Positions 34,415-56,527 of a DNA stretch of 64,000 nucleotides are shown here, one piece after another. Position 1 is the stretch's first letter; the number at the start of each line of letters is the position of its first letter. The notes beneath the pieces are model-generated. The model had not been told where the DNA came from. It was given only the letters and a program-made list of their open reading frames with translations, and ran no database searches. Both the position numbers and the translations under genes were made by a program. This stretch comes from Actinotalea alkalitolerans (GTDB taxonomy: Bacteria; Actinomycetota; Actinomycetes; Actinomycetales; Cellulomonadaceae), in NCBI RefSeq assembly GCF_023369855.1, contig NZ_JAMBPP010000008.1, positions 124,001-188,000 of the forward strand. The letters are read 5' to 3'.

Positions 34415-34587
34415 GTCGCTGACGCAGACATCGGGGTCGCGACGACGGAGTCGTGCTGAGGGCGCCTACCGGCACCCCAGCATGAGAGCCGCCGGACGCG
34501 CACACCCGGCGCCGTGGACGCGAGCCTCCGGGCGTCGACCGATCGCTGTGGATCGGACGCCTCCCCCTCCTGACACTGGAGCACTCG

Positions 34588-35508: not shown

Positions 35509-35520
35509 AGAGAAGCTGAC

Positions 35521-36804: not shown

Positions 36805-36875
36805 CCACTCGCCCGCGCCCCGCCGGACGACCGGCCGGGCGCGGGCGGTCAGGCTCCGTATCGGAAGGAGGCGCC

Positions 36876-38659: not shown

Positions 38660-38684
38660 GCCCGCAACGGAAGGACCCGCAGTC

Positions 38685-41666: not shown

Positions 41667-42767
41667 TCAGGAGCTCGCGTGCGGCGTCGCGACCGCGGCA
41701 ACGGCCTCCGCGAGCGCGCGTCGGAGCGGTCCGACGTCCGTGCCCACGCGCGTGGGGTGCACCCTGTTCGTCAGCAGGACGGTCACCGTCCCCCCCACGG
41801 GGTCGACGACGAGGGATGTGCCGGTGAACCCGGTGTGGCCGATCCCGCATACCGAGCCCATGAAGGTCGCGTCGGCGACCCGGAAGCCGGCTGCCTGCCC
41901 GTAGCCGGCGGGTGAGGCGACAGCAGGGTGCACCAGGAGCTCGACGGACGCGGCGTCGAGCACACGCCCGGCCCGGCCCTCGCCGGACCGCAGCACCATC
42001 TGCCCGACGGCGAGGACGTCGTCGGCTGTGCCGAAGAGTCCGGCGTTGCCGACCGGTCGGCCGAGGGCGTGGGCGAGCTCGTCGTGGACCTCGCCTCGGA
42101 TGCTCCCGCGGTGCGGTTGGGTCTCGGTGGCGACAGCAGCCGGCAGGTCGACCGGTCCGAACGCCATCGAGCCGGCGCCGAGCGGGACGAGCGCGCGATC
42201 GCGGAGGATCTCGTCGAGACGGGCCCCTGTCACCAGCTCGAGCAAGCGGCCGACGGCGACGAACCCCAGGCAGGAGTAGTCCGGGCGGGTGCCGGGCGGC
42301 GCCTCGAGCGGGGTGGTGAGCACGCGGTCGAGCAGCCGCTGCCCACGCTCGGCCTGCCACAGCGTCGACGTCGGCGGCAGCCCTGCGGTGTGCGTGAGCA
42401 GGTGTCGCAGCGTGATCTCGTCGGCACCCTCGCCCGTGCCGACCTGCAGGGTCTGCGCGACCGGGGCGTCCAGCTCGACCACGCCCTCCTCGACGAGGGA
42501 CAGTGCCGCGACGGCGACGACGACCTTGGTCAACGAGGCGAGGTCGAACCGGTCGCCCGCCGTGAGCTCCGCGCCGCCCTCGGCGGCCCGCCCCTGCAGG
42601 AGCCGCACGGGCGGCCCGCCCGGTGCGTGCACGGCGACCGATACCGCAGTGCCCGGCACTCCTGCGGCATGGGCCTCGTCGAAGACGCGGGTGACCGCCC
42701 GCTCGAGTGCGTCGTCCGCCGCTCGGGCCTCGGGGACAGCGGAGGGCTGCGTGGTGCTCAGGTCCAT
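41667..42767 (-). CDS. Beta-lactamase-fold serine hydrolase (YbbE-like)
   Basis: A 366-residue cytosolic protein (no signal peptide). The active-site Ser-x-x-Lys is S78-LT-K81 in RFDLASLTKVV. The second motif is Y164-S-C instead of the usual Y-x-N, and an HTG triad in GIGHTGFTGTS takes the place of KTG. These changes are common in class-C-like esterases or amidases. LRHLLTHTAGLPP is the typical motif after the SxxK helix. In Bacillus subtilis a relative (YbbE) is encoded in the murQRP-nagZ-amiE-namZ region for cell-wall sugar recycling; its place here, last gene behind murQ-ABC-kinase, matches that context. It may trim the peptide or ester from muropeptides. It overlaps the kinase gene by 10 bp. 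Confidence 0.85.
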   Translation of the reverse strand: MDLSTTQPSAVPEARAADDALERAVTRVFDEAHAAGVPGTAVSVAVHAPGGPPVRLLQGRAAEGGAELTAGDRFDLASLTKVVVAVAALSLVEEGVVELDAPVAQTLQVGTGEGADEITLRHLLTHTAGLPPTSTLWQAERGQRLLDRVLTTPLEAPPGTRPDYSCLGFVAVGRLLELVTGARLDEILRDRALVPLGAGSMAFGPVDLPAAVATETQPHRGSIRGEVHDELAHALGRPVGNAGLFGTADDVLAVGQMVLRSGEGRAGRVLDAASVELLVHPAVASPAGYGQAAGFRVADATFMGSVCGIGHTGFTGTSLVVDPVGGTVTVLLTNRVHPTRVGTDVGPLRRALAEAVAAVATPHASS

Positions 42768-43750
42768 AGCAGCCCGCTCACCGCCTCGACCGGCGGATCA
42801 CCGGCCGCCAGGGCACGGGCCAGGGCGACGGCCCCGGCGAGCGGGTCACCGGCCGGGTCGACCAGCCGAACCTCGGGTCGTGCGGTGGCCAGGTGACGCC
42901 GGAACGCAGTGCTCACGGTGGGGACGTCGAGCACCCCGCCGACCCCGGACAGCACGGGCGGCACCCCGTCGCGCAGCACCGCGGAGGCGGTGGCTGCGAG
43001 CGCGCGACCGGCGCGGTCGACGAGCTCCGTGGCCGCCCGGTCACCCGCCGCGGCGAGCGCCGTGACGGCCGGCGCGAAGGAGGCGAAGAGGGTCGCCGGA
43101 TCGTCCCGGCCGTGCACCGCACGCGGCCACCCGGAGGGGTCGCCGAGCAGGTCGCGACCGGCAGCGAGCAGGGTCGCGCCGTCTGCACCGGCCCCCGTGC
43201 CGCCGTCGACCGCAGCGCCGTCGACTGCCCGGCCGTCGTGCTCGGCGAGTGCCCGCCGCAGTCCTTGCGCACCCAGCCACGCGGCACCGCCGTCGTCCCC
43301 CAGCAGGTGCCCCCAGCCGTCGGCGCGGTACCAGTGCCCGTCGTCGGTCCGGCCGAGAGCGACCGACCCGGTCCCCACGGCCAGCACCGCGCCCGGACCG
43401 TCGCCGAGGGCGCCGAGGTGCGCGGTGAGCGCGTCGGCAGCCAGGGCGACCCGGGTGGTCCCGCTCACCTCGACGAGCCGCGCGGCGAACCGGCCGTGCT
43501 CGGCGGCGAGCGAGGACATGCCCGTGGCGCCGACCGCGATCGAGGCGACCGCTCCGCCGCCCCCGGCAGCGGCCCGGACATCCCCCAGCACCGTGCGGAC
43601 CACTCCGAGGACCGCGGCCTCGATCGCCGCGCCCGTCTTCGCCGCTCCCGGCGCCACGACCGAGGCGATCGTCGTGCCGTCGTCGCGGACGGCGACCGCG
43701 CGGCTGCTGCTGCCGCCGACGTCGACCGCGACCAGCACGCCCGGAGTCAC
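42758..43750 (-). CDS. BadF/BadG/BcrA/BcrD-type amino-sugar kinase (N-acetylglucosamine/MurNAc kinase-like)
   Basis: A 330-residue ASKHA-fold kinase. The phosphate-1 motif reads LVAVDVGGSSSRAVAV; a mid-domain VSGTTRVALAADALTAHLGAL contains the catalytic-Asp region. AVLAVGTGSVALGR is the phosphate-2 motif and GWGHLLGDDGGAAWLG the family signature. VLSGVGGVLDVPTVSTAFRRHL is the adenosine region. Relatives phosphorylate N-acetylglucosamine or, as in Clostridium MurK, both MurNAc and GlcNAc at O6. With an ABC importer (which delivers unphosphorylated sugar) and murQ in the same operon, a MurNAc/GlcNAc kinase role is the best inference. GTG 43750 overlaps the permease stop (GTGA). Confidence 0.85.
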   Translation of the reverse strand: MTPGVLVAVDVGGSSSRAVAVRDDGTTIASVVAPGAAKTGAAIEAAVLGVVRTVLGDVRAAAGGGGAVASIAVGATGMSSLAAEHGRFAARLVEVSGTTRVALAADALTAHLGALGDGPGAVLAVGTGSVALGRTDDGHWYRADGWGHLLGDDGGAAWLGAQGLRRALAEHDGRAVDGAAVDGGTGAGADGATLLAAGRDLLGDPSGWPRAVHGRDDPATLFASFAPAVTALAAAGDRAATELVDRAGRALAATASAVLRDGVPPVLSGVGGVLDVPTVSTAFRRHLATARPEVRLVDPAGDPLAGAVALARALAAGDPPVEAVSGLLWT

Positions 43751-44673
43751 TTGCTCATGCCGGCGGTGAGGCCGTTGATGATCTGCTTGGTCGCGATGAG
43801 GAAGATGATCACCAGCGGGACCGTCGCGATGGTCAGGCCCGCGAACAGCTGCGGCCAGTCGGTCGAGTACTCCCCGAAGAAGCGGGTCAGCCCCACGGGC
43901 AGGGTGTAGGTGTCGCGGTCGCGCAGCAGGATCAGCGGGTAGAAGAAGTCGTTCCAGACCGGCACGAAGCGGAAGACGATCACCGTGGCCAGGGCCGGGC
44001 GGACCAGCGGGAGCAGCACGCGGACGAAGGTCTGGAACGGTCCGGCCCCGTCCAGGCGCGCGGCCTCCTCGAGCTCGACGGGCATCTGGCGGAAGAACAC
44101 CGCGAGCACGAAGGTGCTGAACGGGATCCCGAGCGCCGCGTACACCAGGATCAGGCTGAGCCGGCTGCTGGTCATGCCCAGGGCGTCGAGCATGTAGAAC
44201 AGCGGCAGGATCGCCAGGTGCACCGGGAGCATCAGCCCGGACAGGAACACCATCTCCGTGCCGGCCAGGAACCGGCTGCGGCTGCGGGCGAAGGCGTAGG
44301 CGGCGAGCACCGAGACGACGGTGCCCAGGGCGACCGACCCGACGGTCACGATCGCGGAGTTGATGAAGTACGTCTCGAAGGACGCGGTGAGCCACGCCTC
44401 CCGGTAGCTGTCGAGGGTCGGCTCCAACGGCAGACCGAGCGGCTCGGTGGCGATCTGCTGCTGGGACCGCAACGAGTTGTTCACCATGAGCAGCAGCGGG
44501 CCGATCGCCACGACCGCGTAGCCCCACAGGAAGATGTTGGTCAGGAGGGCACCCACCCGGCCGCCCTCGCGGCGGGCCGGACGGCGTCGTGCAGGTCCGG
44601 GCGGGGTGATGCGGGCGTCCTGGGAGGCCTCGGTGCGCGGCAGCTCGGCCGGGACGTGCTGGACGGTCGTCAT
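43747..44673 (-). CDS. Sugar ABC transporter permease (MalG-type), murQ operon
   Basis: A 308-residue membrane protein. ATG 44673 shares one base with the previous stop (TGATG). A long Arg/Pro-rich cytosolic N-terminus (about 45 residues) precedes the spans, the first being FLWGYAVVAIGPLLLMVNNSLRS. The EAA loop is in ELEEAARLDGAGPFQTFVRVLLPLVRPA, followed by VFRFVPVWNDFFYPLILLRD and the terminal FLIATKQIINGLTAGMSK. It pairs with the MalF-type subunit encoded just upstream. No ATPase gene lies in the operon, implying a shared ATPase. Confidence 0.9.
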   Translation of the reverse strand: MTTVQHVPAELPRTEASQDARITPPGPARRRPARREGGRVGALLTNIFLWGYAVVAIGPLLLMVNNSLRSQQQIATEPLGLPLEPTLDSYREAWLTASFETYFINSAIVTVGSVALGTVVSVLAAYAFARSRSRFLAGTEMVFLSGLMLPVHLAILPLFYMLDALGMTSSRLSLILVYAALGIPFSTFVLAVFFRQMPVELEEAARLDGAGPFQTFVRVLLPLVRPALATVIVFRFVPVWNDFFYPLILLRDRDTYTLPVGLTRFFGEYSTDWPQLFAGLTIATVPLVIIFLIATKQIINGLTAGMSK

Positions 44674-45635
44674 CAGAAGAGCCTCCGCTCGGCCCGGCGC
44701 ATGAACCGGGTGATCACCACGGACACGACGAGGATGAACAGGAACAGGACCGTGGCCAGCGCGGACGAGATCCCGATCGAGTTGGCGTTCCCGCTCTCGA
44801 ACGCGGTGCGGTAGAAGAGCAGCATCATCACGTCGGTGGACCGCGCCGGACTCCCGGAGGAGCCGCCGAGCGCGAACGGTATCGCCATCGACTCCATGGC
44901 GCCGATGAAGGTCAGGACGGTGATGATCCCGATGGTCGGGGTGAGCATCGGCAGGGTGACGTACCGGAACCTCTTCCACGACGTCGCACCGTCGAGCGAG
45001 GCGGCCTCGTCGATCTCCGGGGCGATGCCGCCCATCGCGGCCCCGTAGAGCAGGATCGGGAACCCGATCCACTGCCAGGCGGTGACGCCGACGACGACCC
45101 AGATGGCCAGGTTCGGGTCGCCGAGCCATGGCTGGGCGAGCGAGTCGAGGCCTACGCCGCGCAGGATCGCGTTCACCGGGCCGAACAGCGGCGACAGCAT
45201 GAGCGACCACAGGTAGCCGATGACCATGGGGCTGACCAGGTACGGCAGGGCGAAGATCGTCTGGAACATCCGCTTGGTGCGCTTGCGGCGGTGCAGCAGC
45301 GCGGCGATGCCCAGGCCGAGGGTGTTCTGGAAGAGCACCGCACCGCCGAAGAGCAGCAGGTTGTGCAGGAAGGCGTTGCGCAGGTCGTGCGCGTAGGGCG
45401 CCTGGGTCAGCAGCGTGACGTAGTTGCTGAACCCGGCGAAGCCCGCCTGACGGGTGCCGGCCCAGTCGAAGAACGAGTAGCTGAGCGCCGCGACCATCGG
45501 GTAGAGGATGAAGACCCCGAACAGCAGGGCTGCGGGGAGCACGAACGCGAGCCCGACGCCGAAGGGCAGGTGGATGCCCGTGTTCTTGCTGCGCGGTCGC
45601 GCCGTGCGGCCGACCGTTGTTGCGGGGGCTGTCAT
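44673..45635 (-). CDS. Sugar ABC transporter permease (MalF-type), murQ operon
   Basis: A 320-residue membrane protein. ATG 45635 has AGGAAGGA upstream. Elements: FGVGLAFVLPAALLFGVFILYPMVAAL, FFDWAGTRQAGFAGFSNYVTLL, MVIGYLWSLMLSPLFGPVNAILRGVG, the EAA loop EIDEAASLDGATSWKRFRYVTLPMLTP, and ESMAIPFALGGSSGSPARSTDVMMLLF near the end. It is the heterodimer partner of the next gene product. It lies 69 bp downstream of the binding-protein gene. Confidence 0.9.
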   Translation of the reverse strand: MTAPATTVGRTARPRSKNTGIHLPFGVGLAFVLPAALLFGVFILYPMVAALSYSFFDWAGTRQAGFAGFSNYVTLLTQAPYAHDLRNAFLHNLLLFGGAVLFQNTLGLGIAALLHRRKRTKRMFQTIFALPYLVSPMVIGYLWSLMLSPLFGPVNAILRGVGLDSLAQPWLGDPNLAIWVVVGVTAWQWIGFPILLYGAAMGGIAPEIDEAASLDGATSWKRFRYVTLPMLTPTIGIITVLTFIGAMESMAIPFALGGSSGSPARSTDVMMLLFYRTAFESGNANSIGISSALATVLFLFILVVSVVITRFMRRAERRLF

Positions 45636-45704
45636 GTCGGTCCTTCCTCGGCGAGCGGTGGGCCGGCCGCCGGGGGGAGGGCACCCCCGGCGGCCGGGTG
45701 GGGA

Positions 45705-47003
45705 TCAGGGGCTCGGCGTGAACCAGGTCGAGACGCCGGTCTGCAGGTTGGTGGCGAGGTCCTCGGGCGTGGCCTGTCCCAGGAACAGGCTCTGGATGTC
45801 CGGCCCGAGCACCGCGGTGCCCGCCGGGTCGCCGTAGCGGAAGTTCACCAGCAGCAGGTAAGGCGCCGGGTTCTCCGTGTACTGCTCGTTCATCTCCTGC
45901 ATGAGCGGGTCGGAGTACTCGACCCCCGGCAGCGGGGAGAACTGCTGGGCCTCGTCGGCGAAGATCTGACCGAACTCGGGGGTGGCCATCCAGCTGAGGA
46001 GCGCGAGCGCCTCCTCCTTGTTGGCCGAGGAGGCGTTGAGACCGAAGCTACCGTCCGCGTACCCGGGGGTCACCGGGGTGTCGAGGACCGAGCCGGGGGG
46101 CGGCGGGACCTGGTAGACGCCCCACTCGGTGTCCGGGGCGCCGTCGCGGAAGGTCGGCAGGTCGAACGAGCCGCCCGGCCACTGCGCGGCCAGACCCGCG
46201 GTGAACTGCAGGGAGGCGTCTGCGACGGCGATCGCGCTGACGTCCGGGTCGAGGTACTGCTGCATCTGCTCGACCATCTCGAGGGAGGCGACGTAGTCCG
46301 GGTCGGTGAAGTCCTTCTCTCCGGACAGGACGGCTGCCTCGAACTCGGCGCCGCCGTAGCGGGCCGAGCCGACGATGTCGTGGAACATCGGGAGCACCCA
46401 GTCCTCGCGGGCTCCGAGCGCCATCGGCGTGACGCCCTCGGCGAGCAGCGCCTCCTGGAGGTCGATGAACTCGTCCCACGTGGTGGGCTCCTCGAGGCCC
46501 ATCTCGTCGAACATCGTCTTGTTGTAGAACATCTGCATGGTCTGGTACGCGAAGGGGACGCCGTAGGTCAGGCCGTCCTCCTGGCCCTCGGACGCTCGCA
46601 GCACGGTCGGCTCGAACTGGTCGAGCCCGTCGATGTCGTCCCCGATCGGGTCGAGCTGCCCGGCGCGGATCGCGTTCTGCACACCGCCGTAGGCGCGCAG
46701 CATCGGGATGTCGGGGCCGTCGCTGCCCTCCATGCCGGTGGCGAGGATCTGGTTGTACTCGGTCGGCTGGAAGCCCTCGAACTGGATGGTGACGCCGGGG
46801 TTCTCCTCCTCGTACACGTCGAAGATCGCCTCCCACGCGGGGGCGGTCGCGGCCTGCCACGACCAGACGGTCAGGGTGACCTCCTCACCGCCGTCCGCGG
46901 GCTGCTCGCCCGACGCGGGCGCGTCCGAGGCGGGGGCACAGGCGGTCAGTGCCAGGGCACCGACGGTGAGTCCGGCGAGGACCAGGTGCTTGCGAGTCGT
47001 CAT
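45705..47003 (-). CDS. Substrate-binding lipoprotein of the murQ-linked ABC importer
   Basis: A 432-residue lipoprotein: RKHLVLAGLTVGALALTAC gives a signal peptide with lipobox Cys ~22. Family-1 sugar-binding features are EVTLTVWSWQAATAPAWEAIFDVYEEENPGV, YNQILATGMEGSDGPDIPMLRAYGG, TYGVPFAYQTMQMFYNKTMFDEMGLEEPTTWDEF, and GLAAQWPGGSFDLPTFRDGA. By context it should capture MurNAc, GlcNAc-MurNAc or an anhydro/peptide form released from peptidoglycan; the ligand is inference. The conserved Trp-rich stretches suggest sugar stacking. It is the second gene of the operon, 65 bp after murQ. Confidence 0.9.
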   Translation of the reverse strand: MTTRKHLVLAGLTVGALALTACAPASDAPASGEQPADGGEEVTLTVWSWQAATAPAWEAIFDVYEEENPGVTIQFEGFQPTEYNQILATGMEGSDGPDIPMLRAYGGVQNAIRAGQLDPIGDDIDGLDQFEPTVLRASEGQEDGLTYGVPFAYQTMQMFYNKTMFDEMGLEEPTTWDEFIDLQEALLAEGVTPMALGAREDWVLPMFHDIVGSARYGGAEFEAAVLSGEKDFTDPDYVASLEMVEQMQQYLDPDVSAIAVADASLQFTAGLAAQWPGGSFDLPTFRDGAPDTEWGVYQVPPPPGSVLDTPVTPGYADGSFGLNASSANKEEALALLSWMATPEFGQIFADEAQQFSPLPGVEYSDPLMQEMNEQYTENPAPYLLLVNFRYGDPAGTAVLGPDIQSLFLGQATPEDLATNLQTGVSTWFTPSP

Positions 47004-47068
47004 GGCTGTGTGTCTCCGTGCTCGGTTGCGGGTGGATGGGGTTTCGGCGGTGGGCCGCGGCCGTGGGG

Positions 47069-47986
47069 TCACGGCGTGAGTGCCCGGATCGCCTCGCGCA
47101 CGGAGCCGGAGGACTCCGTGAGCGCGCGGTGGGCGACGTCGACGTCGACGTCGCACAGGGTGGCGACCAGGGCCTTCTTGAGGTCGCCGTCGGCACGGAC
47201 CAGGGCCTCGTGCGAGAGGTCGAGGTTCCGGCCGGTGGCCTCGGCGAGGATACGTACCGTGCGGTCGCGCAGCTTCGCGTTGGTGGCGACCAGCGAGACC
47301 ATGAGGTTGGACCAGACCCGGCCCCGGCGCACCATCAGTGCGGTCGAGAAGCCGTTGAGGACCAGCTTCTGCGCCGTCCCGGCCTTGAGCCGGGTCGAGC
47401 CGGTGAGCGCCTCGGGGCCGGTGTCGACCTCGATGGCGAGGTCGACGTCTGCCGAGAGCGCCGCACCGGGGTTGTTGGTGATCAGCGCGGTGACCGCGCC
47501 GGCCCGGCGGGCCGCGCGCAGGGCCGCGCCCACGTAGGGCGTGCGTCCGGAGGCAGTCAGCCCGATCGCGACGTCGTGCGGGCCGAGGCCGGCCGCGGCC
47601 GCGGCGCCCTCGTCCTCGGAGTCCTCCGAGTTCTCCACCGCCCGCACCAGGGCGGTGTCGCCCCCGGCGATGTGCGGGATCACGGTACCTGCGCCCAGGT
47701 TGAACGTGGGGAGCAGCTCGACGGCGTCGAGCACCGCCAGCCGGCCCGAGGTGCCGGCGCCGAAGTAGTGGATCGCGCCCCCGGCCGCCAGTGCGGCGTC
47801 TGCTGCGTCGACCAGCCGGGCGACCGTCGGGAGCTGCCGCGCGACGGCGGCAGGCACGGTCGCGTCCTGGCGGTTGAGCAGGATCAGCACCTCGAGGGAC
47901 GTCATCTCGTCGAGTCCGGCCGAGTCCGCGAGCCGTTCCTCGGTGCGTGCGACGCCCGTGGGCCAGATGCCAGCGGTGGTGGTCAT
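47069..47986 (-). CDS. murQ: N-acetylmuramic acid 6-phosphate etherase
   Basis: A 305-residue SIS-domain lyase that removes D-lactate from MurNAc-6-phosphate to give GlcNAc-6-phosphate in the cytosol. Diagnostic motifs: LNRQDATVPAAVARQLP near the start, HYFGAGTSGRLAVLDAVELLPTF (phosphosugar loop and the first catalytic Glu), VRAVENSEDSEDEG holding the second acidic catalytic site, IGLTASGRTPYV, and the terminal VWSNLMVSLVATNAKLRDRTVRIL. The PTF-x position is Asn rather than the usual Gly. It is the first gene of the minus-strand arm and divergent from an RpiR/MurR regulator; direct repeats in the gap are the likely operator. Start ATG 47986 with AGGA upstream. Confidence 0.93.
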   Translation of the reverse strand: MTTTAGIWPTGVARTEERLADSAGLDEMTSLEVLILLNRQDATVPAAVARQLPTVARLVDAADAALAAGGAIHYFGAGTSGRLAVLDAVELLPTFNLGAGTVIPHIAGGDTALVRAVENSEDSEDEGAAAAAGLGPHDVAIGLTASGRTPYVGAALRAARRAGAVTALITNNPGAALSADVDLAIEVDTGPEALTGSTRLKAGTAQKLVLNGFSTALMVRRGRVWSNLMVSLVATNAKLRDRTVRILAEATGRNLDLSHEALVRADGDLKKALVATLCDVDVDVAHRALTESSGSVREAIRALTP

Positions 47987-48041
47987 GGGTTCCTGTCCGT
48001 CCTCGCGCCACTGCCGGGTGCAGGAGCGATCCGCACACTAT

Positions 48042-48083
48042 TGGCAAGATTTCTCGCGTTGTCCAGCCCCTCTGGCAATATTT
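48042..48083. promoter_or_regulatory. Direct repeats in the murQ/murR gap, candidate RpiR operator
   Basis: TGGCAAGATTT (48042-48052) and TGGCAATATTT (48073-48083) match at 10 of 11 positions and are 31 bp apart, three helical turns. They are the only AT-rich motifs in the 160-bp gap and flank possible promoter elements for both directions (for example TGGACA/TAGTGT toward murQ, spacing 19). Confidence 0.5.
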
Positions 48084-48146
48084 ACACGCGGACTCCGATC
48101 CGTGGCAGAGTGGGCGCCGTCACACCCCGTCGACCCGCGGAGAGCC

Positions 48147-49013: not shown

Positions 49014-49026
49014 GAAGGACCCGCCC

Positions 49027-50220
49027 ATGACCGCCAGCACCCTCTCCCGCCAGGCCGTCCCCCGGACCGGGCTCGACCTGGTCGGCGCAGGCCGGGGCCC
49101 CGACCTGACCGGCCTGCGCCTGGGCCTGGTCACCAACGACGTCACCCTCACCTCGGACCTGCGGCGGGGGCGCGAGGCGCTCGTCGCCGCGGGTCTGGAC
49201 CTGCGCCTGCTGTTCACCCCCGAGCACGGCCTGACCGGACTGGCCCGCGAGGGCGCGCTGATGGGCGACGAGGTCGACCCCGTCACCGGGCTGCCGGTGC
49301 GCTCGCTCTACGGGGACACGCTCGCGCCGTCGGGCACGGACCTCGCCGGGCTCGACGCCGTCCTGTACGACCTGCCCGACGTCGGGAGCCGGTTCTACAC
49401 CTACATGTGGACCCTCAGCCACGTCCTCGAGGCGTGCGCCGCGGCCGGTACGCGACTCGTGGTGCTCGACCGCCCGAACCCGATCGGCGGGGACCTCGCC
49501 CTGGCCGAGGGACCGATGCTCGACGAGGAGCGGTGCCAGTCGTTCGTCGGGCGCTGGTCGATGCCGATCCGGCACTCCCTGACCATCGGTGAGCTCGCCC
49601 GGTGGTGGGTGAGGTCGCGCGGGATCGACGTCGAGCTCGAGGTCGTGCCGGTCGAGGGATGGACGCGGGACCGTACCGCCCTCGACGGTGCGGCGCACTG
49701 GACCCCGCCGTCCCCCGCGATGCCGAGCGGGTTGACGGCCCTGCTGTACCCAGGCACCTGCTTGTTCGAGGGCGTCAACCTCGCCGAGGGCCGCAGCACC
49801 GCCGTCCCGTTCCGCGTGCTCGGCGCCCCGTGGCTGGACGCCGAGGAGATGGTGCGGCGCATCCGCGACCTGCAGCTCCCCGGCCTGCTCGCCACGCCCT
49901 ACCCGTTCACCCCGTTGACCCGCGACCACGCGGGCGAGGCCTGCCAGGGCGTGCTGCTCGCGGTGACCGACGCCGCCGCGCTACGACCGGTGCGCTCGGT
50001 CGTGCGGATCCTGTCGGTGGTGGCCGAGCTGCACGGCGACCGGCTCGAGGAGCGCACCGCGCCGCACATGCCCGGGGAGTCGCCGCGAACCGCCCTCGAG
50101 AAGCTCTTCGGTCAGGTGGACGCGTTCGCCGAGATCTCCTCGGGCCAGTGGGACGACCCGTCGCGCTTCGACGTCCCGCAGTGGGCCGAGGCCGTCGCCG
50201 ACTCGCTGCTGTACCGGTGA
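49027..50220 (+). CDS. namZ: NamZ-like DUF1343 exo-beta-N-acetylmuramidase
   Basis: A 397-residue DUF1343 protein. ATG 49027 has AAGGA 7 nt upstream. The family signature is complete: LRLGLVTNDVTLTSDLRRG, LLFTPEHGLTG, PVRSLYGDTLAPS, the central YDLPDVGSRFYTYMWTLSHVLEA, VVLDRPNPIGG, SFVGRWSMPIRHSLTIGELARW, TALLYPGTCLFEGVNLAEGRST, and a C-terminal LFGQVDAFAEISSG. NamZ of Bacillus subtilis releases MurNAc from the non-reducing end of muramyl disaccharides outside the cell. This copy has no signal peptide, so it should act in the cytosol on imported MurNAc-GlcNAc or muropeptides. It is the second gene of the murR arm, 13 bp downstream of the regulator. Confidence 0.88.
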   Translation: MTASTLSRQAVPRTGLDLVGAGRGPDLTGLRLGLVTNDVTLTSDLRRGREALVAAGLDLRLLFTPEHGLTGLAREGALMGDEVDPVTGLPVRSLYGDTLAPSGTDLAGLDAVLYDLPDVGSRFYTYMWTLSHVLEACAAAGTRLVVLDRPNPIGGDLALAEGPMLDEERCQSFVGRWSMPIRHSLTIGELARWWVRSRGIDVELEVVPVEGWTRDRTALDGAAHWTPPSPAMPSGLTALLYPGTCLFEGVNLAEGRSTAVPFRVLGAPWLDAEEMVRRIRDLQLPGLLATPYPFTPLTRDHAGEACQGVLLAVTDAAALRPVRSVVRILSVVAELHGDRLEERTAPHMPGESPRTALEKLFGQVDAFAEISSGQWDDPSRFDVPQWAEAVADSLLYR

Positions 50221-50259
50221 GCGGGCTGTACCGGTGAGCGGGCTGTACCGGTGAGCGGG
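50209..50259. repeat. Three perfect 17-bp tandem repeats across a gene junction
   Basis: CTGTACCGGTGAGCGGG occurs three times in tandem (50209-50225, 50226-50242, 50243-50259). Copy 1 contains the namZ stop codon and copy 3 the GTG start of the next gene. As 17 is not a multiple of three, copy-number change would not extend either protein but would alter the spacing between them. Confidence 0.9.
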
Positions 50260-51579
50260 GCCTCGCCCGCCGCCTGGGCGGCGCTGGCCCCGCACCTGGT
50301 CGGCCTCGACGTCACCGACAAGGGCTGGAGCCCGGCGCTGACTGCGGTCGCCGACGCCCCCGTGCCGCTGAGCGAGGCCTCGACGCCGGTACTCACGCTC
50401 GACGTGGCGGTCGCCGAGCGCAACCTGCTGGCCATGCAGGAGTGGACCGACCTCCGGGGCGCGGTGCTGGCTCCGCACGGCAAGACGACGATGACCCCGG
50501 CCCTGTGGCACTGGCAGCTCGCCGCCGGGGCCTGGGCGATCACCGTCGCGACCGAGGCCCAGCTGCGGGTCGCCCGGGTGGCCGGTGTCCGCCGGGTCCT
50601 GGTCGCCAACGAGCTGCTCTCTCCCACCGGTCTCGCCTGGCTCGCCGGCGAGCTCGACGCCGATCCGGACCTCGACGTGACCTGCTGGGTCGACTCGGTC
50701 GAGGCCGTGCACCAGATGACGCGCGCCCTGGCCGCCGTCGGGGCCCGGCGGGCAGTCGGTGTGTGCGTCGAGATCGGGGTCGACGGCGGTCGCACCGGAG
50801 CGCGCACCGACGAGCTCGCCCACGCGGTGGCCCACGCCGCGCGCGACTCCGACCAGCTCGAGCTGCGCGGGGTCGCCGCGTACGAGGGCAGCGTCCCGGG
50901 CCGGGACGAGGAGGACAAGGCTGCCGGGGTCCGGGCCTTCCTCGCCCGCACCGGCCGGACCTTCGTCGCGCTCGCCGACCTCCTCGAGACGCCTGAGCCG
51001 ATCCTCACCGCCGGGGGCAGCGCCTACTTCGACCTGGTGGCCGACGAGCTCTCCACCGTTGCGGCCACGGTCCCCGGGGCCCGGCTGGTGCTCCGCTCGG
51101 GCGCCTACCTCGTGCACGACGACGGGCTCTACCGTGGCTCGACCCCGGCGGCAACCCGCTCCGGGCCGATCCTCGAGGCGGCCGCACACGTGTGGAGCCG
51201 GGTGCTGTCCGTCCCCGAGCCGCACCTGGCCCTGCTCGACGCCGGGAAGCGCGACCTGCCCTACGACGCCGGCCTGCCCGAGCTGCAGCGCGTGGTCCGC
51301 ACCGGGACCGCCGAGGCGGTGGCCGCTCCCGCCGGCACGATCACCGGGACCAACGACCAGCACAGCTACGTCCGGCTCGAGGAGCCGGGGTCGCTCGCCG
51401 TCGGCGACGTCGTCCGCCTGGGGCTCTCCCACCCGTGCACCATGTTCGACAAGTGGCGCACGGTGGTCCTCGTCGAGCCCACCGAGCCTGCCGAGCCCAC
51501 CGAGCCTGCCGACGCGGCTGCAGCGGCAGGCGACCTGAGGGTCCCGACCGTCCGTGGGGTGCTGCGCACATGGTTCTGA
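50251..51579 (+). CDS. PLP-dependent D-amino-acid deaminase/aldolase (DSD1, alanine-racemase N-terminal fold)
   Basis: A 442-residue fold-type III PLP enzyme. STPVLTLDVAVAERNLLAM opens the barrel; the Schiff-base Lys is in LAPHGKTTMTPALWHWQL; VLVANELLSPTGLAWL and VCVEIGVDGGRTGARTDEL are later barrel strands. The C-terminal beta domain keeps the His and Cys of the zinc site in LGLSHPCTMFDKW, a hallmark of D-serine dehydratase and D-threonine aldolase. A short repeat EPTEPA occurs twice near the end. D-serine deamination would give pyruvate and ammonia through 2-aminoacrylate, which fits the ridA gene two genes downstream. GTG 50251 lies within a tandem repeat and has no good ribosome-binding site; the next gene overlaps by 10 bp. 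Confidence 0.85.
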   Translation: MSGASPAAWAALAPHLVGLDVTDKGWSPALTAVADAPVPLSEASTPVLTLDVAVAERNLLAMQEWTDLRGAVLAPHGKTTMTPALWHWQLAAGAWAITVATEAQLRVARVAGVRRVLVANELLSPTGLAWLAGELDADPDLDVTCWVDSVEAVHQMTRALAAVGARRAVGVCVEIGVDGGRTGARTDELAHAVAHAARDSDQLELRGVAAYEGSVPGRDEEDKAAGVRAFLARTGRTFVALADLLETPEPILTAGGSAYFDLVADELSTVAATVPGARLVLRSGAYLVHDDGLYRGSTPAATRSGPILEAAAHVWSRVLSVPEPHLALLDAGKRDLPYDAGLPELQRVVRTGTAEAVAAPAGTITGTNDQHSYVRLEEPGSLAVGDVVRLGLSHPCTMFDKWRTVVLVEPTEPAEPTEPADAAAAAGDLRVPTVRGVLRTWF

Positions 51580-53183
51580 CGATCCGCGGTGGGACCGTTG
51601 TCGACCCGGTGGACGGGCTGTGGACCGCCGACGTCGCGATCGACGGCGGCCGCGTCGTGGCGGTGGGTGAGGGCCTGGCGGAGAGCGCGCGGCTGCGGGG
51701 CGGCACCGTCCTGGACGCCGATGGCCGTCTCGTGCTGCCCGGGCTGGTCGATGCCCACTCCCACGCCGACGCCCGGGTGCTCGACGAGGACGTGCAGCTC
51801 GCGCTCCTGCGCCAGGGGGTCACCTCGGTGCTCGCCGGGCAGGACGGCGTGTCCTTCGCGCCCGGGGACGGCGCCTATGCGACGGACTACTTCGGCCCGA
51901 TCAACGGCCCGCACCCCACCTACCGCGGCGGCGGGGTGGGCGCGCTGCTCGACGGGTACGCCGGCACCACGCGGGTCAACGTCGGCTACCTGGTGCCGGC
52001 GGGCACCGTGCGGCACGAGGTCATGGGCGCCGGTCGGGACCGGCCGAACGCGGCCCAGCTGGCCGCGATGGTCCGTGCGGTCGAGGCCGGACTGGCCGAG
52101 GGCGCGCTCGGCCTGTCCTCGGGGCTGGACTACGTGCCCGGCTGCTTCGCGGACGCGGCCGAGCTCGCGGCCCTGTGCGCGCCGGTCACTGCGGCGGGGG
52201 CGCTCTACGTCACGCACATGCGCGGGTACGAGGAGTCCGCCCCGCGCGGGCTGGCCGAGGTCGAGGACATCTGCCGGCGCAGCGGGGTGGCCGCGCACGT
52301 CTCGCACCTGCACGCCCGCGCCGACCTCCTCGACGGGCTCCTCGCGGGGGCCCGCGACCGGGGCCTGGACCTCACCTTCGACGCCTACCCGTACGCCCGC
52401 GGGTTCACCCTGCTCAGCATGGCGGTGCTGCCCGCCGACCTCGTCGCGCAGGGGGCGCAGGTCGTCACCAGCCGGCTACGCACCGCCGACGGTCGGGAGC
52501 AGGTCCGCGCGCAGCTCGCCCGGCTCGCGGCCACGCCCGGCGCCGGGGACCACCTCGCTGCGGGCTGGCCGTCCCGGATGCGCGTCGCATCGGCCGGGTC
52601 GGCGGCCTACGCCTGGACCGAGGGACGAACCCTCACCGAGGCCGCCGCCTCCCGTGACCCCGCCGCGACCGACCTCGACGCCACGGACCTCGCGCTGCGG
52701 ATGCTGGGCGAGTCGGCCCTGCGGGTCACCGTGGTGCTGGACCCGCCGAGCCCACGCACCGACGCCGAGCTGGCCCGGACCTTCCGGCACCCCGAGGCGA
52801 TGGGCGGGTCGGACGGCATCTACCTCGGCGGCCACCCGCACCCGCGCGCCTGGGGTGCGTTCGCCCGGCTGCTCGCCACCGGCGCGCAGGGCCGGGAGGA
52901 GGGTGCGTGGCCGCGGCTCGCCGACCTCCTGTCGCTGCGACCGGTCGAGCGGTTCGGCCTCGGTGCGCGCGGCCGGGTCACCGGGGGAGCCGTCGCCGAC
53001 CTCGTGCTGGTCGACCCGGCGGCCCTCGCCGACCATGCCACCCCCGAGCACCCGACCACCCTCGCCACCGGGATCGACGACGTCCTGGTCGCCGGGACAC
53101 CCGTGCTGACCGGCGGTGCCCTGACGTCGCACCTCGCCGGGGCGCCGCTGCGCCGGTCCCGCCCCGGGCGACCGACCCCCTGA
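51570..53183 (+). CDS. N-acyl-D-amino-acid deacylase (D-aminoacylase, amidohydrolase superfamily)
   Basis: A 537-residue amidohydrolase. ATG 51570 overlaps the previous gene. The urease-type beta domain (TIRGGTVVDPVDGLWTADVAIDGGRVVAVG) precedes the barrel. The metal HxH is in LPGLVDAHSHADARVL; GLSSGLDYVPGCFADAAELAAL contains the family's conserved Cys region; VTHMRGYEESAPRGLAE and VSHLHARADLL supply later His ligands. The late Asp is in MGGSDGIYLGGHPHPRAWGAF, and VTGGAVADLVLVDP is the returning beta domain. It would release D-amino acids from N-acyl derivatives; within this locus plausible sources are D-lactyl- or muramyl-peptide fragments. Cytosolic. Confidence 0.88.
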   Translation: MVLTIRGGTVVDPVDGLWTADVAIDGGRVVAVGEGLAESARLRGGTVLDADGRLVLPGLVDAHSHADARVLDEDVQLALLRQGVTSVLAGQDGVSFAPGDGAYATDYFGPINGPHPTYRGGGVGALLDGYAGTTRVNVGYLVPAGTVRHEVMGAGRDRPNAAQLAAMVRAVEAGLAEGALGLSSGLDYVPGCFADAAELAALCAPVTAAGALYVTHMRGYEESAPRGLAEVEDICRRSGVAAHVSHLHARADLLDGLLAGARDRGLDLTFDAYPYARGFTLLSMAVLPADLVAQGAQVVTSRLRTADGREQVRAQLARLAATPGAGDHLAAGWPSRMRVASAGSAAYAWTEGRTLTEAAASRDPAATDLDATDLALRMLGESALRVTVVLDPPSPRTDAELARTFRHPEAMGGSDGIYLGGHPHPRAWGAFARLLATGAQGREEGAWPRLADLLSLRPVERFGLGARGRVTGGAVADLVLVDPAALADHATPEHPTTLATGIDDVLVAGTPVLTGGALTSHLAGAPLRRSRPGRPTP

Positions 53184-53215
53184 CGTCTACCGATCACCAC
53201 CCCTGGAGGAGCACC

Positions 53216-53599
53216 ATGAAGAAGGTCATCACCACCGACGCCGCCCCGCGCCCGGCGGGCCCGTACAACCAGCTGGTCGTCGCGAACGGCTTCGCGTTCT
53301 CGGCGGGCTTCGGCCCGCAGGACCCGGCGACCGGCCTGGTGCCCGAGGGCGCCGACGCGCAGACCCGCCAGGTGCTGCGCAACGTCGAGGCGGCCCTGGG
53401 TGCGGCCGGGCTCGGCCTGGGCGACGTCGTGAAGGTCACCGCGCACCTGCAGCACCTGCACCGGGACGTCGCCGCGTACAACGCCGCGTACACCGAGCTG
53501 ATGCCGGCTCCGTACCCCGTGCGGACCACGGTCGGCTCGGACCTGGCGAACATCCTGGTGGAGATCGACGTGGTCGCGGTCGTCCCCGAGCAGGACTGA
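53216..53599 (+). CDS. ridA: RidA family enamine/imine deaminase
   Basis: A 127-residue RidA protein. ATG 53216 has GGAGGA just upstream. Motifs: APRPAGPYNQLVVANGFAFSAGFGPQDP at the start, QTRQVLRNVEAALGAAGLGLGDVVKVTAHLQ in the middle, and the terminal PYPVRTTVGSDLANILVEIDVVAV, where the Arg corresponds to the catalytic Arg that holds the substrate carboxylate. RidA hydrolyses the reactive 2-aminoacrylate released by PLP dehydratases. Its presence in the same operon as a DSD1-type enzyme strongly suggests it clears that intermediate. It is the last gene of the plus arm, followed by a hairpin terminator. Confidence 0.92.
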   Translation: MKKVITTDAAPRPAGPYNQLVVANGFAFSAGFGPQDPATGLVPEGADAQTRQVLRNVEAALGAAGLGLGDVVKVTAHLQHLHRDVAAYNAAYTELMPAPYPVRTTVGSDLANILVEIDVVAVVPEQD

Positions 53600-53619
53600 C
53601 CGACCAGCACCGACCGGAC

Positions 53620-53648
53620 GGCGGCGAACGCCCCCACGGGTCGCCGCC
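53620..53648. terminator. Hairpin terminator between ridA and the D-lactate dehydrogenase gene
   Basis: GGCGGCGA (53620-53627) pairs perfectly with TCGCCGCC (53641-53648) around a 13-nt loop. It lies between two convergent genes ending at 53599 and 53660 and can terminate both. A second palindromic stretch, CCCGGG-TCAGA-CCCGGG, overlaps the end of the minus-strand gene. Confidence 0.6.
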
Positions 53649-53659
53649 CGGATCCCGGG

Positions 53660-56527
53660 TCAGACCCGGGTGGCGACCTCGAGCACCTCGAGCACGTGGC
53701 GGTACGTCCGGCCGGTGGCCCGGGACATGCCCATCTCGCACGTCCGGTTGGCCGAGACGTAGGCGTCGGCGTCGTGCCCGGCGACCTCGGCCGCCTCGGG
53801 TGCGGTCGCGGCCGCGGTGAGCTCGGGGTGCAGCATGCCCCGGTCGCCGGCGAACCCGCAGCAGCCCCAGTCGACCGGCACGGTGACCTCCTCGGCCGCT
53901 GCGGCGGCGACCACCATCAGGTCGTCCATGCCGTCCAGGTGCACGGTCGAGCAGGTCGGGTGCACGACCATCGACCCGACCTGCCGCGCCGGCGTGAGCC
54001 GCGGCAGGACCTCGCGGCGCACGTAGGTGACGGCGTCGAGCACCAGGAGCTGGTCGAACCTCTCGCCTGCCTCGGCCGTCAGGTGCGGCCGCAGCCCTTG
54101 CAGGCCGTGGCTGCACGACGACGCGTCGCACACCACGGGTAGCGCCCCTCCGCCGCTCGCCGTCCAGAGCGCCTCGAACGTGCGCCCCGCCATCGCGTCG
54201 TGGCCGACCGTGAACCCCTTGGACGCCCAGGGCGTGCCGCAGCACAGGGCGTCGACCCCCTCGGGCACCGCGACCGGCAGCCCGGCACGCTCGCACAGCG
54301 CGAGGAACGCCGCTGTGGCGCCGAGGCCGACGTCGTCCGCCCCACCTGCACCGGGGCCGGCGGACGGCGCGGCCTCGAACAGCGACCCCGTGCACGAGGG
54401 GAAGAGCACCACGGCCGACCCCGCGGGAGCGCGCCCGGCGGGCCGGCGCGGACCGGGTCCTGGGAGGTCGGGACCCACCGACGGGACGAGGTCGGTCCCG
54501 AGCACCGCGCGGCCCAGGGCCGACGCGGCGGCGGTCAGCGGGGCCGGCAGGGTCGCGGCGAGCCCGAGCCCGGCGCGCAGCCCGGTCGACACCCCGCCGA
54601 AGTGCCGCGCGACCGCCGCGCCGGCCCGCTGCGCAAAGGGCCCGTGCGCGTCGGCGCGGAGCTCCTTCATCACCTTCCCGGTGTCGATGCCCACCGGGCA
54701 CGCGGCGACGCACAGCGAGTCCGCCGCGCAGGTCTGCACCGCGGAGTAGTCGAAGTCCCGGGTCAGCTCGGCCCGCCGCTCGGGGGAGGACACGGCGATC
54801 TCCCGCAGCAGGACGATGCGCTGGCGCGGGGTGGTGGTCACGTCCCGGCTCGGGCAGGTGGGTTCGCAGTAGCCGCACTCGACGCACCGGTCCAGCTCGG
54901 GGTGCACCGGGGGGCTGGGCTTGAGGTCGCGCAGGTGGGCGTCCGGGTCCTCGTCGAGCAGGACGCCGGGATTGAGCACCCCGCGGGGGTCGCACAGCCG
55001 CTTGAGCTCGACCATCACCTCGTAGAGCGCGTCCCCGTACTGCCGCCGGACGAACGGCGCCATGATCCTGCCCGTCCCGTGCTCGGCCTTGAGCGACCCG
55101 CCCCTCCCGAGCACCAGGTCCACGAGGTCGTCGGTGAAGCGCGCGTACCGCTCGACCTCGGCGCGGTCGTCGAGATGCGGGGTGATCATGAAGTGGAGGT
55201 TGGCGTCCTTGGCGTGGCCGAAGACGACGGCTTCGTCGTACCCGTGGACGTCGAACAGGCGGGTCAGGTCCGCGACCGTCGCCGGCAGTGCGTCCGGCGG
55301 CACGACGACGTCCTCGAGCAGGGCCGTCGTCCCCGGGGCCCGGGCTCCGGCGACCGCGGTGTAGAGCCCCTTGCGGGTGCGCCACAGGCTGGCACGGGCG
55401 GCCGGGTCCCGGGTGAGCGGGGCGACCGGAGCGCTGGTGCGCAGGGCCGCGAGCACCGGGTCCGCGCCGACGACGGCATCGGCGAGCTCGGCCGCCTGCC
55501 CGGCCTGGTACTCGACCAGCAGGGCGGTGTGCCGGTCGACGGCGATCGACCTCAGGACGTCGGCCGCCTGCGGATCGGCCTGCGCGACCCGCAGGGAGGC
55601 GGCGTCGAGCAGCTCGACGGCGTGCGCCCCGGAGTCGACGAGCGGGGCGAGCGCCCCGGTGGCCGTGGCGACGTCGTCGAACACCAGCAGCCCGGTCGCC
55701 GCGAAAGGCAGTGCCGGGACGGTCGCGAAGGTCACCTCGGCCACGAACGCGAGGGTCCCCTCGCTGCCGATCACCAGGTGGGCGAGCATCTCGACCGCGG
55801 TGTCGTGGTCGAGGAGGGCGTTCAGGCCGTAGCCCATCGTGTTCTTCATCGCGAACTGCCGCTCGATCTCGGCCCGCAGCGCGGCGTCGTCGCGCACCCG
55901 GTCCCGCAGCCGCAGCAGACCGGTCCACAGGTCGGGCTCGAGCCGGCGCAGCCGGTCGTCGGCGCCGGGGGCGGCGGTGTCCAGGACGGTGCCGCTGGGC
56001 AGCACGAGGACCAGGGAGTCCACCGTGCGGTAGGCGGTCTGCGTGGTCCCGGCGGTCATCCCGCTCGAGTTGTTCGCCACCACCCCGCCGATGGTGCACG
56101 CGAGCTCGCTGGCCGGGTCCGGGCCGAGGCGGCGCCCGTACCGGGCCAGCCGCGCGTTCACCTGGCGCAGGGTGACACCGGGCTGGCACCGGACGCGCCT
56201 CCCGTCGTCGAGAACCTCGACCTCGGTGAAGCGTCGGCGGGTGTCGACCAGCAGCCCGGCGGTCGAGGCCTGCCCGGACAGGCTGGTGCCACCGGACCGG
56301 AAGGTCACCGGGGTCCCGGACCCCGCCGCGACCCGCAGCAGGCTCGCGACCTCCGCGGCGGTGCGCGGGGTGACCACCGCTCGCGGGGTCAGCAGGTAGT
56401 GAGACGCGTCGTGCGCCATGGCGGCCACGTCGATCGCGCCGGTCCGGACCTGCTCGGGCGAGAGTGCCGCGCGCAGGAGGTCGAGGACGCCGTCGTCCGT
56501 GGCAGGGGGCGCAGAGGTGGGGGGCAT
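53660..56527 (-). CDS. dld: FAD/Fe-S D-lactate dehydrogenase (Dld-II/GlpC fusion type)
   Basis: A 955-residue three-part enzyme. Residues ~45-260 are a PCMH-type FAD domain: VTFRSGGTSLSGQAS, LGPDPASELACTIGGVVANNSSGM and HLVIGSEGTLAFVAEV. Residues ~280-510 are the FAD oxidase C-terminal domain with HAKDANLHFMITP and SLKAEHGTGRIMAPFV. Two 4Fe-4S ferredoxin motifs follow, CVECGYCEPTCPSRD and CAADSLCVAACPVGIDTGK. The C-terminal half carries two CCG domains (LFPSCTGS ... ALCCGTPWASKG; HPTCSTVH ... DWGCCGFAGDRG). This layout is that of D-lactate dehydrogenases feeding electrons to the quinone pool. In this locus D-lactate would come from MurQ, which makes the oxidase a logical partner. It is convergent with ridA and single in its transcript. 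Confidence 0.88.
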   Translation of the reverse strand: MPPTSAPPATDDGVLDLLRAALSPEQVRTGAIDVAAMAHDASHYLLTPRAVVTPRTAAEVASLLRVAAGSGTPVTFRSGGTSLSGQASTAGLLVDTRRRFTEVEVLDDGRRVRCQPGVTLRQVNARLARYGRRLGPDPASELACTIGGVVANNSSGMTAGTTQTAYRTVDSLVLVLPSGTVLDTAAPGADDRLRRLEPDLWTGLLRLRDRVRDDAALRAEIERQFAMKNTMGYGLNALLDHDTAVEMLAHLVIGSEGTLAFVAEVTFATVPALPFAATGLLVFDDVATATGALAPLVDSGAHAVELLDAASLRVAQADPQAADVLRSIAVDRHTALLVEYQAGQAAELADAVVGADPVLAALRTSAPVAPLTRDPAARASLWRTRKGLYTAVAGARAPGTTALLEDVVVPPDALPATVADLTRLFDVHGYDEAVVFGHAKDANLHFMITPHLDDRAEVERYARFTDDLVDLVLGRGGSLKAEHGTGRIMAPFVRRQYGDALYEVMVELKRLCDPRGVLNPGVLLDEDPDAHLRDLKPSPPVHPELDRCVECGYCEPTCPSRDVTTTPRQRIVLLREIAVSSPERRAELTRDFDYSAVQTCAADSLCVAACPVGIDTGKVMKELRADAHGPFAQRAGAAVARHFGGVSTGLRAGLGLAATLPAPLTAAASALGRAVLGTDLVPSVGPDLPGPGPRRPAGRAPAGSAVVLFPSCTGSLFEAAPSAGPGAGGADDVGLGATAAFLALCERAGLPVAVPEGVDALCCGTPWASKGFTVGHDAMAGRTFEALWTASGGGALPVVCDASSCSHGLQGLRPHLTAEAGERFDQLLVLDAVTYVRREVLPRLTPARQVGSMVVHPTCSTVHLDGMDDLMVVAAAAAEEVTVPVDWGCCGFAGDRGMLHPELTAAATAPEAAEVAGHDADAYVSANRTCEMGMSRATGRTYRHVLEVLEVATRV

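Follow-up and report, generated by a model that had tools for sequence, protein, structure and literature searches.

We found that Actinotalea alkalitolerans (genome size 4.37 Mb) carries a twelve-gene locus that appears to encode catabolism of N-acetylmuramic acid (MurNAc). The locus occupies 41667-56527 of a 64,000-nucleotide stretch of this genome (the window; contig NZ_JAMBPP010000008.1, positions 124,001 to 188,000), and its genes are listed in Table 1. Judged by gene families and layout, a route through the MurNAc-6-phosphate etherase MurQ, an ATP-binding cassette (ABC) importer and a BadF-family kinase is well supported. Use of the D-lactate released by MurQ, by the predicted dehydrogenase encoded by the adjoining gene dld, is likewise well supported. 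A further trio of genes, dsd, daa and ridA, probably serves the breakdown of an amino-sugar acid rather than of D-amino acids.

The MurNAc core of the locus

All twelve open reading frames (ORFs) are intact. An initial annotation, made from the letters of the window alone, had described two divergent arms and a convergent dld; every ORF was open and in the place described, and the Pfam families agree. murQ and murR are a divergent pair with a 160-bp spacer between them. The minus arm runs from murQ through sbp, perm1, perm2, the BadF kinase gene and a serine hydrolase gene, which are tightly spaced or overlapping (the first two gaps are 65 and 69 bp, and the remaining neighbors overlap by 1, 4 and 10 bp). 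The plus arm runs from murR through namZ, dsd, daa and ridA with similarly tight spacing (successive distances of 13 and 30 bp, an overlap of 10 bp and a last gap of 32 bp). Convergent to the plus arm, dld lies 60 bp beyond ridA.

The families of the core proteins fit the use of MurNAc. In addition to the matches in Table 1, MurQ matched TIGR00274 at 286.9, slightly below the cut-off of 302. The glutamates of its AVELLPTF and AVENSED motifs line up with those of PDB 4s12, and we take these two to be the catalytic residues. No phosphotransferase system (PTS) gene (murP) is present among the twelve genes; an ABC importer and a kinase are found instead. The proposal in the initial annotation that an ABC importer plus a kinase replaces the PTS was thus borne out by families and gene layout.

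The kinase is related to PDB 8zo3, a solved kinase of MurNAc and N-acetylglucosamine (GlcNAc) that is presumably from a Clostridium (8.9e-14 as a single sequence, 5.5e-30 as a family profile). Asp106 of the kinase is invariant (8/8) and has the same offset as Asp95 of Tannerella forsythia MurK, where chain numbering may shift by one. In MurK, Ser133-Pro134-Leu135 and Thr94 are reported to let the lactyl group fit (Stasiak et al., PMC10465942).

Two observations weigh against this route. No ATPase subunit is encoded among the twelve genes. In addition, the Ser-Pro-Leu triad is not kept in the kinase, which has Asp144-Gly145-Trp146 in the aligned positions (Gly-Gly-Trp in 8zo3), so that GlcNAc could be its main substrate. 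At the Thr94 position, just before the catalytic Asp, the kinase has Ala105; this residue is small or hydrophobic in 41 of the 43 kinases of the loci read (the exceptions are Asp in L145 and His in L130). The position is not decisive for MurNAc specificity because 8zo3 itself has Asn there. The safest reading is that the protein is a dual MurNAc/GlcNAc kinase. A model of the solute-binding protein (15 sequences, pLDDT 87.4) had the chitin-oligosaccharide-binding protein 7eho as its closest fold (1.7e-28).

We found that the importer recurs near murQ in other genomes. We read 140 murQ loci: 60 of the 64 places in a sample of the host's family outside its own genome (all except G043, G073, G095 and G129), 40 places from the host's class, mostly best scoring, and 40 named loci. 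The gene finder called no murQ in 4 of the 140, leaving 136 that were counted. An importer of the window type was near murQ in 14 of these 136 loci (4/58 family, 8/40 class and 2/38 named, the last two being Psychrobacillus and Viridibacillus of the Bacilli). L226, a locus from another family, carries serine hydrolase and importer genes together with murR and namZ (50-79% identity), and no murQ stands between them. Among 15 relatives of the solute-binding protein, 14 were near murQ and one (L226) was beside murR-namZ, in a search almost entirely of murQ loci. By gene content, the importer, MurR, NamZ and the hydrolase are a recurrent core. The ABC-plus-kinase route had been called unusual; it does belong to a minority of murQ loci, and the idea that it is unique to the host genome was rejected on the same 14 occurrences. 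Labels of neighboring genes in these loci (such as GH13, LacI, SDR and SSS) come from inspection and BLAST, except in examples checked with hidden Markov models (HMMs). In L036, L038, L040-L042, L076, L077 and L132, the neighborhood of murQ and anmK includes a gene that looked sodium/solute-symporter-like on inspection, in most cases along with the kinase gene. The product of the symporter-like gene is a possible candidate for a non-ABC, non-PTS MurNAc transporter.

Cleavage by NamZ and by the hydrolase is probably cytoplasmic, on an imported saccharide, because neither protein shows a signal peptide. The better-known members of the NamZ family are secreted. NamZ of the window and of L043-L045 begins at the domain itself, as does the window hydrolase. 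Of 17 relatives, 10 have a NamZ that extends 17-40 residues ahead of the aligned start, and in 9 of the 10 a pair of Arg residues lies close to the N-terminus, resembling a twin-arginine signal. The extended NamZ proteins that were inspected adjoin longer hydrolases and NagZ proteins whose N-termini are hydrophobic. NamZ of L085 and L127 look shortened by the gene finder and are uninformative in this respect. A crude hydropathy scan, in which some murQ controls scored as high, revealed no signal-like stretch in the window NamZ. The start of the hydrolase gene overlaps the kinase gene, and that of namZ is 13 bp behind murR.

The spacer between murQ and murR contains an 11-nucleotide direct repeat (48042-48083; Table 1) that is found nowhere else in the window and is possibly a MurR operator. 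The pattern is absent upstream of dld, which counts against the scheme proposed below. It is not conserved in the loci of relatives: with the host genome's own loci (L002, L005 and L006) set aside, L131 alone among the other fetched loci has a single exact match.

dld and the D-lactate released by MurQ

The initial annotation linked dld to the D-lactate that MurQ releases, and we found that this link extends well beyond the window. The family sample comprised 149 genomes other than the host's; dld was present in 41, murQ in 59 and both in 37. murQ was found in 37 of the 41 genomes with dld compared to 22 of the 108 without it (Fisher test, 2.7e-15, uncorrected for kinship). The association held when stratified by genus (one-sided p = 7e-8) in the 102 genomes with a printed genus, the other 47 being left out. 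In one genus (g8), for example, eight genomes have both genes and six have neither.

The two genes are also often neighbors. dld is within 10.1 kb of murQ in 14 of the 41 family genomes with dld, and murQ, the kinase gene or murR is the same-strand neighbor in 15 of the 22 dld genes read. These adjacencies come in five gene orders, all different from that in the window: murQ-kinase-dld (6 loci), importer-kinase-dld (2), murR-dld near namZ and nagZ (2), kinase-murR-dld (4, one of them away from murQ) and murR-dld-murQ (1, with gaps of 292 and 198 bp). None of the three genes is beside dld in L220 and L222-L225. In a tree, the window copy is nearest to the kinase-murR-dld copies (support 92/96, below the level we starred). 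The co-occurrence, the genus test and the recurrent adjacency led us to reject the notion that dld is near murQ by mere local accident.

Several findings weigh against D-lactate as the substrate, or against a strict tie to murQ. The dld chain carries FAD-oxidase, 4Fe-4S and CCG domains, the last a weak match. Its NCBIfam matches, none of which reaches its cut-off, point to 2-hydroxyglutarate or glycolate enzymes more than to Dld. Among solved proteins a glycolate oxidase is the best relative, and a D-lactate dehydrogenase comes behind it. By itself, the sequence does not separate D-lactate, glycolate and 2-hydroxyglutarate as substrates. This dld is missing from 22 of the 59 family genomes with murQ and was found in none of the 38 named murQ loci. 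Most copies in the class samples are unlinked to murQ; dld was beside murQ or at most 5 kb from it in 2 of 38 dld-bearing genomes other than the host's (G212 and G230), a count read by eye from two listings with differing genome samples. In the window itself, dld is convergent and part of neither operon; we sought a terminator or promoter in the interval between ridA and dld and found no consensus match. The host genome also has a dld paralogue, 59% identical, elsewhere (C35:2998-5868, locus L201). The paralogue adjoins genes that looked GntR-like and isochorismatase-like on inspection, and there is no murQ in the stretch read. With these points taken into account, our results lend good support to the notion that the dld product uses the D-lactate released by MurQ.

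Use of the lactate derived from MurNAc is a long-standing idea (PMC3022706, PMC6165865, PMC6572805). Lactate accumulated when engineered Corynebacterium glutamicum grew on MurNAc; raising Dld was proposed in that study (PMC6165865). A partial search of open-licence PubMed Central (PMC) literature found no paper on dld in murQ operons or on their linkage in actinobacteria.

The dsd-daa-ridA trio

The family libraries leave the substrates of the trio unsettled, as all NCBIfam matches listed for daa and dsd are far under their cut-offs. His394 and Cys396 of the HPC motif of dsd are invariant (16/16), as we would expect for a Zn-type D-serine dehydratase if these residues have the ligand roles that we assume.

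A second pattern is provided by the ong cluster of Pseudoalteromonas prydzensis. There, OngB (D-aminoacylase-like) and OngC (D-amino-acid-deaminase-like) convert N-acetylglucosaminate (GlcNAc1A), from chitin cut by a lytic polysaccharide monooxygenase (LPMO), to 2-keto-3-deoxygluconate (KDG) (Jiang et al., PMC9537276). OngD, a RidA protein, is needed for growth on N-acetylglucosaminate, and an RpiR regulator represses the operon (PMC9537276). The plus arm of the window, like ong, holds a deacylase, a pyridoxal phosphate (PLP)-dependent deaminase, RidA and an RpiR regulator in one cluster.

We found that the trio often keeps company with genes that fit the ong pattern. We read 32 loci with a window-type daa outside murQ clusters, mostly best matches and not a random draw. 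dsd was present in 22 and ridA in 23, including all 22 with dsd. A KDG-kinase-like gene, a gene for 2-keto-3-deoxy-6-phosphogluconate (KDPG) aldolase, or both, were present in 11 of the 32; all five genes (dsd, aldolase, kinase, ridA and daa) occur together in L208 and L214. A GH20 hexosaminidase gene was present in 10, all in the host's own family. In the examples checked with HMMs, the aldolase and PfkB domains pass the Pfam cut-offs. The window cluster has no KDG kinase gene; elsewhere, the host genome has one KDG-kinase-like gene and two genes of the KDPG-aldolase family. Near one of the aldolase genes, in a region that looked like uronate catabolism on inspection, is a gene for a 749-residue protein with an AA10 LPMO (LPMO10), CBM5/12 and a GH18 chitinase domain (C11:147-2396, L199).

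Other features of the trio weigh against this assignment. In four of the 11 kinase/aldolase loci (L182, L183, L207 and L215), daa is accompanied by neither dsd nor ridA, and no kinase, aldolase or GH20 gene is present in 11 of the 32 loci. The KDG-kinase-like proteins tested are under the NCBIfam cut-offs for KDG kinase. The closest solved relatives of daa are a D-aminoacylase and an N-acyl-D-glutamate deacylase, not the P. prydzensis OngB (PpOngB). A Cys ligand and a Lys are called conserved in D-aminoacylases and OngB (PMC12017989); in all 23 aligned daa proteins Asp replaces this metal-binding Cys, part of the Cys/His/His metal site in PpOngB, and His replaces the Lys. The Ser291-Ser292 pair of PpOngB is Phe-Thr in the window daa, and relatives vary. 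Lys254, Ser291 and Ser292 were mapped through the Alcaligenes faecalis D-aminoacylase with a numbering that we assume. A model of daa (pLDDT 90.5) resembles D-aminoacylase and PpOngB alike (TM 0.77-0.79), so the fold cannot split the two functions.

Based on these results we suggest, with moderate confidence, that the trio follows the ong pattern rather than a D-amino-acid pattern and that daa has an OngB-like role. By its sequence daa is not OngB by descent, and we do not claim membership in the OngB family. The initial annotation had assigned the trio to the D-amino acids of muropeptides, which now appears doubtful and is probably wrong given the genes found beside it elsewhere. Its broader claim that the locus covers every part of a muropeptide is supported for the sugar and the lactyl part and doubtful for the D-residues. 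No paper on an ong pathway in actinobacteria was found in the partial, open-licence PMC literature.

The union of the trio with murQ is rare, which weighs against a fixed link between them. daa and murQ are neighbors in 3 of the 136 murQ loci (3/58 family, 0/78 others), and these three fall in two genera of one family. In the family sample, murQ was present in 51 of 74 genomes with daa compared to 8 of 75 without it (raw counts, an association as strong as that of dld), and the difference was gone once the 102 genomes were stratified by genus (p = 0.52). Since this control loses its link within genera, raw co-occurrence in this sample mostly reflects shared ancestry; the link of dld is the one that persists. 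A comparison of murQ neighborhoods, proposed at the outset, upheld the co-occurrence of dld and not that of the trio.

Trees of daa (36 rows) and dsd (25 rows) suggest that the union arose more than once. daa and dsd of the window group with the loci that have a KDG-kinase-like gene. Both genes of L044 and L045, and daa of L043 (where the contig ends), group with the GH20 loci. Given the starred branches, the murQ label must have changed two or more times, for which two unions of trio and murQ are the simplest account. The trio is operon-like behind the serine hydrolase gene in L044 and L045 and behind murR-namZ in the window. Compared to L188, of the same genus, L044 and L045 have a serine hydrolase-importer-murQ/namZ block between daa and GH20 of a shared GH20-daa-dsd-ridA cluster. 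Two unions argue for a shared diet of the trio and the mur genes; two events in 136 loci, without co-occurrence within genera, are a thin base for it.

Proposed pathway, alternatives and known systems

We consider the following scheme, as a whole, slightly more likely than not. A CUT1-type ABC importer would take up a MurNAc-containing saccharide, likeliest a disaccharide of the MurNAc-GlcNAc type, with or without peptide. Inside the cell, the AmiE-like hydrolase would trim it and the exo-muramidase NamZ would free MurNAc. The BadF kinase would phosphorylate MurNAc, and perhaps GlcNAc, ahead of MurQ. The FAD/Fe-S dehydrogenase would oxidize D-lactate to pyruvate, making the ether side chain a fuel too. 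The trio, acting not chiefly on D-amino acids, would deacetylate and deaminate an N-acetylated amino-aldonic acid (e.g., GlcNAc1A) to KDG; conversion of KDG to pyruvate and triose phosphate would fall to a KDPG aldolase and a KDG-kinase-like protein encoded elsewhere in the genome. MurR would repress at least both divergent arms until a muramyl ligand appears. We infer the substrates, the cytoplasmic site and the regulation from families, operon layout, N-termini, recurrence and co-occurrence.

Table 1. Features of the MurNAc locus, with positions in the window
Feature	Position	Strand	Evidence
Serine hydrolase, beta-lactamase/YbbE (AmiE-like) family, no signal peptide seen	41667..42767	-	PF00144 1.1e-52, residues 27-350/366
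BadF-family amino-sugar kinase (MurK-like)	42758..43750	-	PF01869 (BcrAD_BadFG) 2.6e-21; best solved relative 8zo3
ABC importer permease 2 (perm2)	43747..44673	-	PF00528 1.1e-16; 70-80% identity in L037, L043-L045
ABC importer permease 1 (perm1)	44673..45635	-	Position and synteny only; 76-79% identity in L037, L043-L045, L226
Lipoprotein-like solute-binding protein of importer (sbp)	45705..47003	-	PF01547 7.4e-31; modeled fold near 7eho
murQ, MurNAc-6-phosphate etherase	47069..47986	-	NF003915 351.8 bits (cut-off 168); PDB 4s12 1e-65
murQ-murR divergent spacer	47987..48146	.	11-nucleotide direct repeat TGGCAAGATTT/TGGCAATATTT, 31 bp apart, possible operator
MurR/RpiR-family regulator (murR)	48147..49013	+	HTH_6 and SIS domains
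NamZ-family exo-N-acetylmuramidase (namZ), no signal peptide seen	49027..50220	+	PF07075 2.7e-65, PF20732 5.7e-31 (NamZ_N, NamZ_C)
dsd, fold-type III PLP enzyme, D-serine-dehydratase kind; proposed amino-aldonate ammonia-lyase (OngC-like role)	50251..51579	+	PF14031 (D-ser_dehydrat), PF01168; PDB 3gwq 1.4e-70
daa, D-aminoacylase-like amidohydrolase; proposed N-acetyl-amino-aldonate deacetylase (OngB-like role)	51570..53183	+	PF07969 (Amidohydro_3); GQDG/SHxH signature
ridA, RidA-family imine/enamine deaminase (OngD-like)	53216..53599	+	PF01042 (Ribonuc_L-PSP) 2e-24
dld, FAD and 4Fe-4S fusion 2-hydroxyacid dehydrogenase, 955 residues; proposed D-lactate dehydrogenase	53660..56527	-	PF02913, PF01565, Fer4_8, weak CCG

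Two neighboring regions were labeled by inspection. A sugar cluster next door (33153-41645) encodes a LacI-like regulator together with the binding protein and permeases of an ABC system; its GH2-like (lacZ-type) gene is convergent with the serine hydrolase gene and ends 21 bp before it. Farther out (24531-31219), the translations look like peptide-type ABC permeases and an ATPase, followed by two ABC-exporter-like genes.

Our results might also indicate that the trio degrades D-amino acids, or L-Xaa-D-Xaa dipeptides from imported muropeptides, to pyruvate or other keto acids. We regard this as rather unlikely, since 21 of the 32 daa loci include genes that D-amino acids would not require (KDG-kinase-like/KDPG-aldolase or GH20), and the daa subfamily lacks the Cys and Lys that D-aminoacylases conserve. 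The family names, the HPC motif and the closest solved relatives of daa do fit such a role, the imported sugar may carry peptide, and OngC accepts D-serine and D-threonine for deamination as well (PMC9537276).

Two further explanations narrow the locus. The trio, dld or both could be unrelated neighbors of a locus that ends at namZ and serves MurNAc only, as the convergent dld, the rarity of trio-murQ adjacency (two genera of one family) and the loss of the daa-murQ link within genera would allow. The five other gene orders and the genus-stratified co-occurrence of dld, and the operon-like spacing of the trio in the window and in L044 and L045, which come from different trio lineages, make this unlikely. 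It is quite unlikely that the importer and kinase work on GlcNAc or chitooligosaccharides while MurQ only recycles the cell's own wall: the importer adjoins murQ and accompanies NamZ and MurR, and the relatives of its binding protein, sought almost only in murQ loci, lie near murQ or, in L226, beside murR-namZ. This explanation draws on the chitin-oligosaccharide-binding fold and on the kinase triad, which is not of the MurNAc-specific type.

A bolder extension of the proposed scheme, which we put forward as very unlikely, is that the plus arm is a pathway for oxidative use of peptidoglycan, an ong cluster with NamZ in place of the GH20 hexosaminidase. Muramyl disaccharides oxidized at C1 (MurNAc-GlcNAc1A, or MurNAc aldonic acid) would be imported and then split; MurNAc would be burned via MurQ and Dld, and the N-acetyl-amino-aldonate via the trio. 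If true, oxidized bacterial cell wall would be a natural nutrient, and the deacylase subfamily with the Asp ligand would be its enzyme. A simpler alternative is that organisms feeding on dead bacteria and on chitin come across MurNAc and GlcNAc1A at the same time. In a partial search of open-licence PMC for peptidoglycan and LPMOs, none of the titles and abstracts listed dealt with how oxidized peptidoglycan is catabolized, and NamZ as a topic brought up unrelated papers or none.

In comparing the locus to known systems, we take ybbC of Bacillus subtilis to be namZ. The B. subtilis cluster murQ-murR-murP-amiE-nagZ-ybbC (PMC5061867) shares with the window MurQ, MurR, an AmiE-type hydrolase and a NamZ-family protein. 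B. subtilis uses the PTS protein MurP and extracellular AmiE and NagZ (PMC5061867), whereas the locus described here has an ABC importer, a BadF kinase, no signal peptides that we could see, no nagZ, and dld and the trio in addition. In murTKQ of T. forsythia (PMC10465942), as with the 8zo3 kinase, a kinase and MurQ replace the PTS; there the transporter is MurT (PMC10465942), and the window kinase does not keep the MurNAc-specificity triad. The ong cluster of P. prydzensis (PMC9537276; PMC12017989) likewise combines an RpiR/MurR regulator with D-aminoacylase-like, D-amino-acid-deaminase-like and RidA genes in one operon. The plus arm differs in having NamZ for the beta-hexosaminidase, a deacylase without the Cys ligand, no kdgK in the cluster, and a junction to murQ.

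A further known system, from another actinobacterium, is SCO4305-SCO4308 of Streptomyces coelicolor, which has murQ and a murR-like gene without murP (PMC5061867). MurP is missing in S. coelicolor; the cluster has two further genes of unknown function, and the accessible part of that paper does not mention an importer, kinase, NamZ or dld (PMC5061867). For the use of MurNAc in actinobacteria without MurP, the locus described here proposes a transporter, a kinase and a sink for the lactate, and thereby a fate for the D-lactate of MurQ. It also serves as a warning that an actinobacterial trio resembling D-amino-acid enzymes may belong to amino-sugar-acid catabolism.

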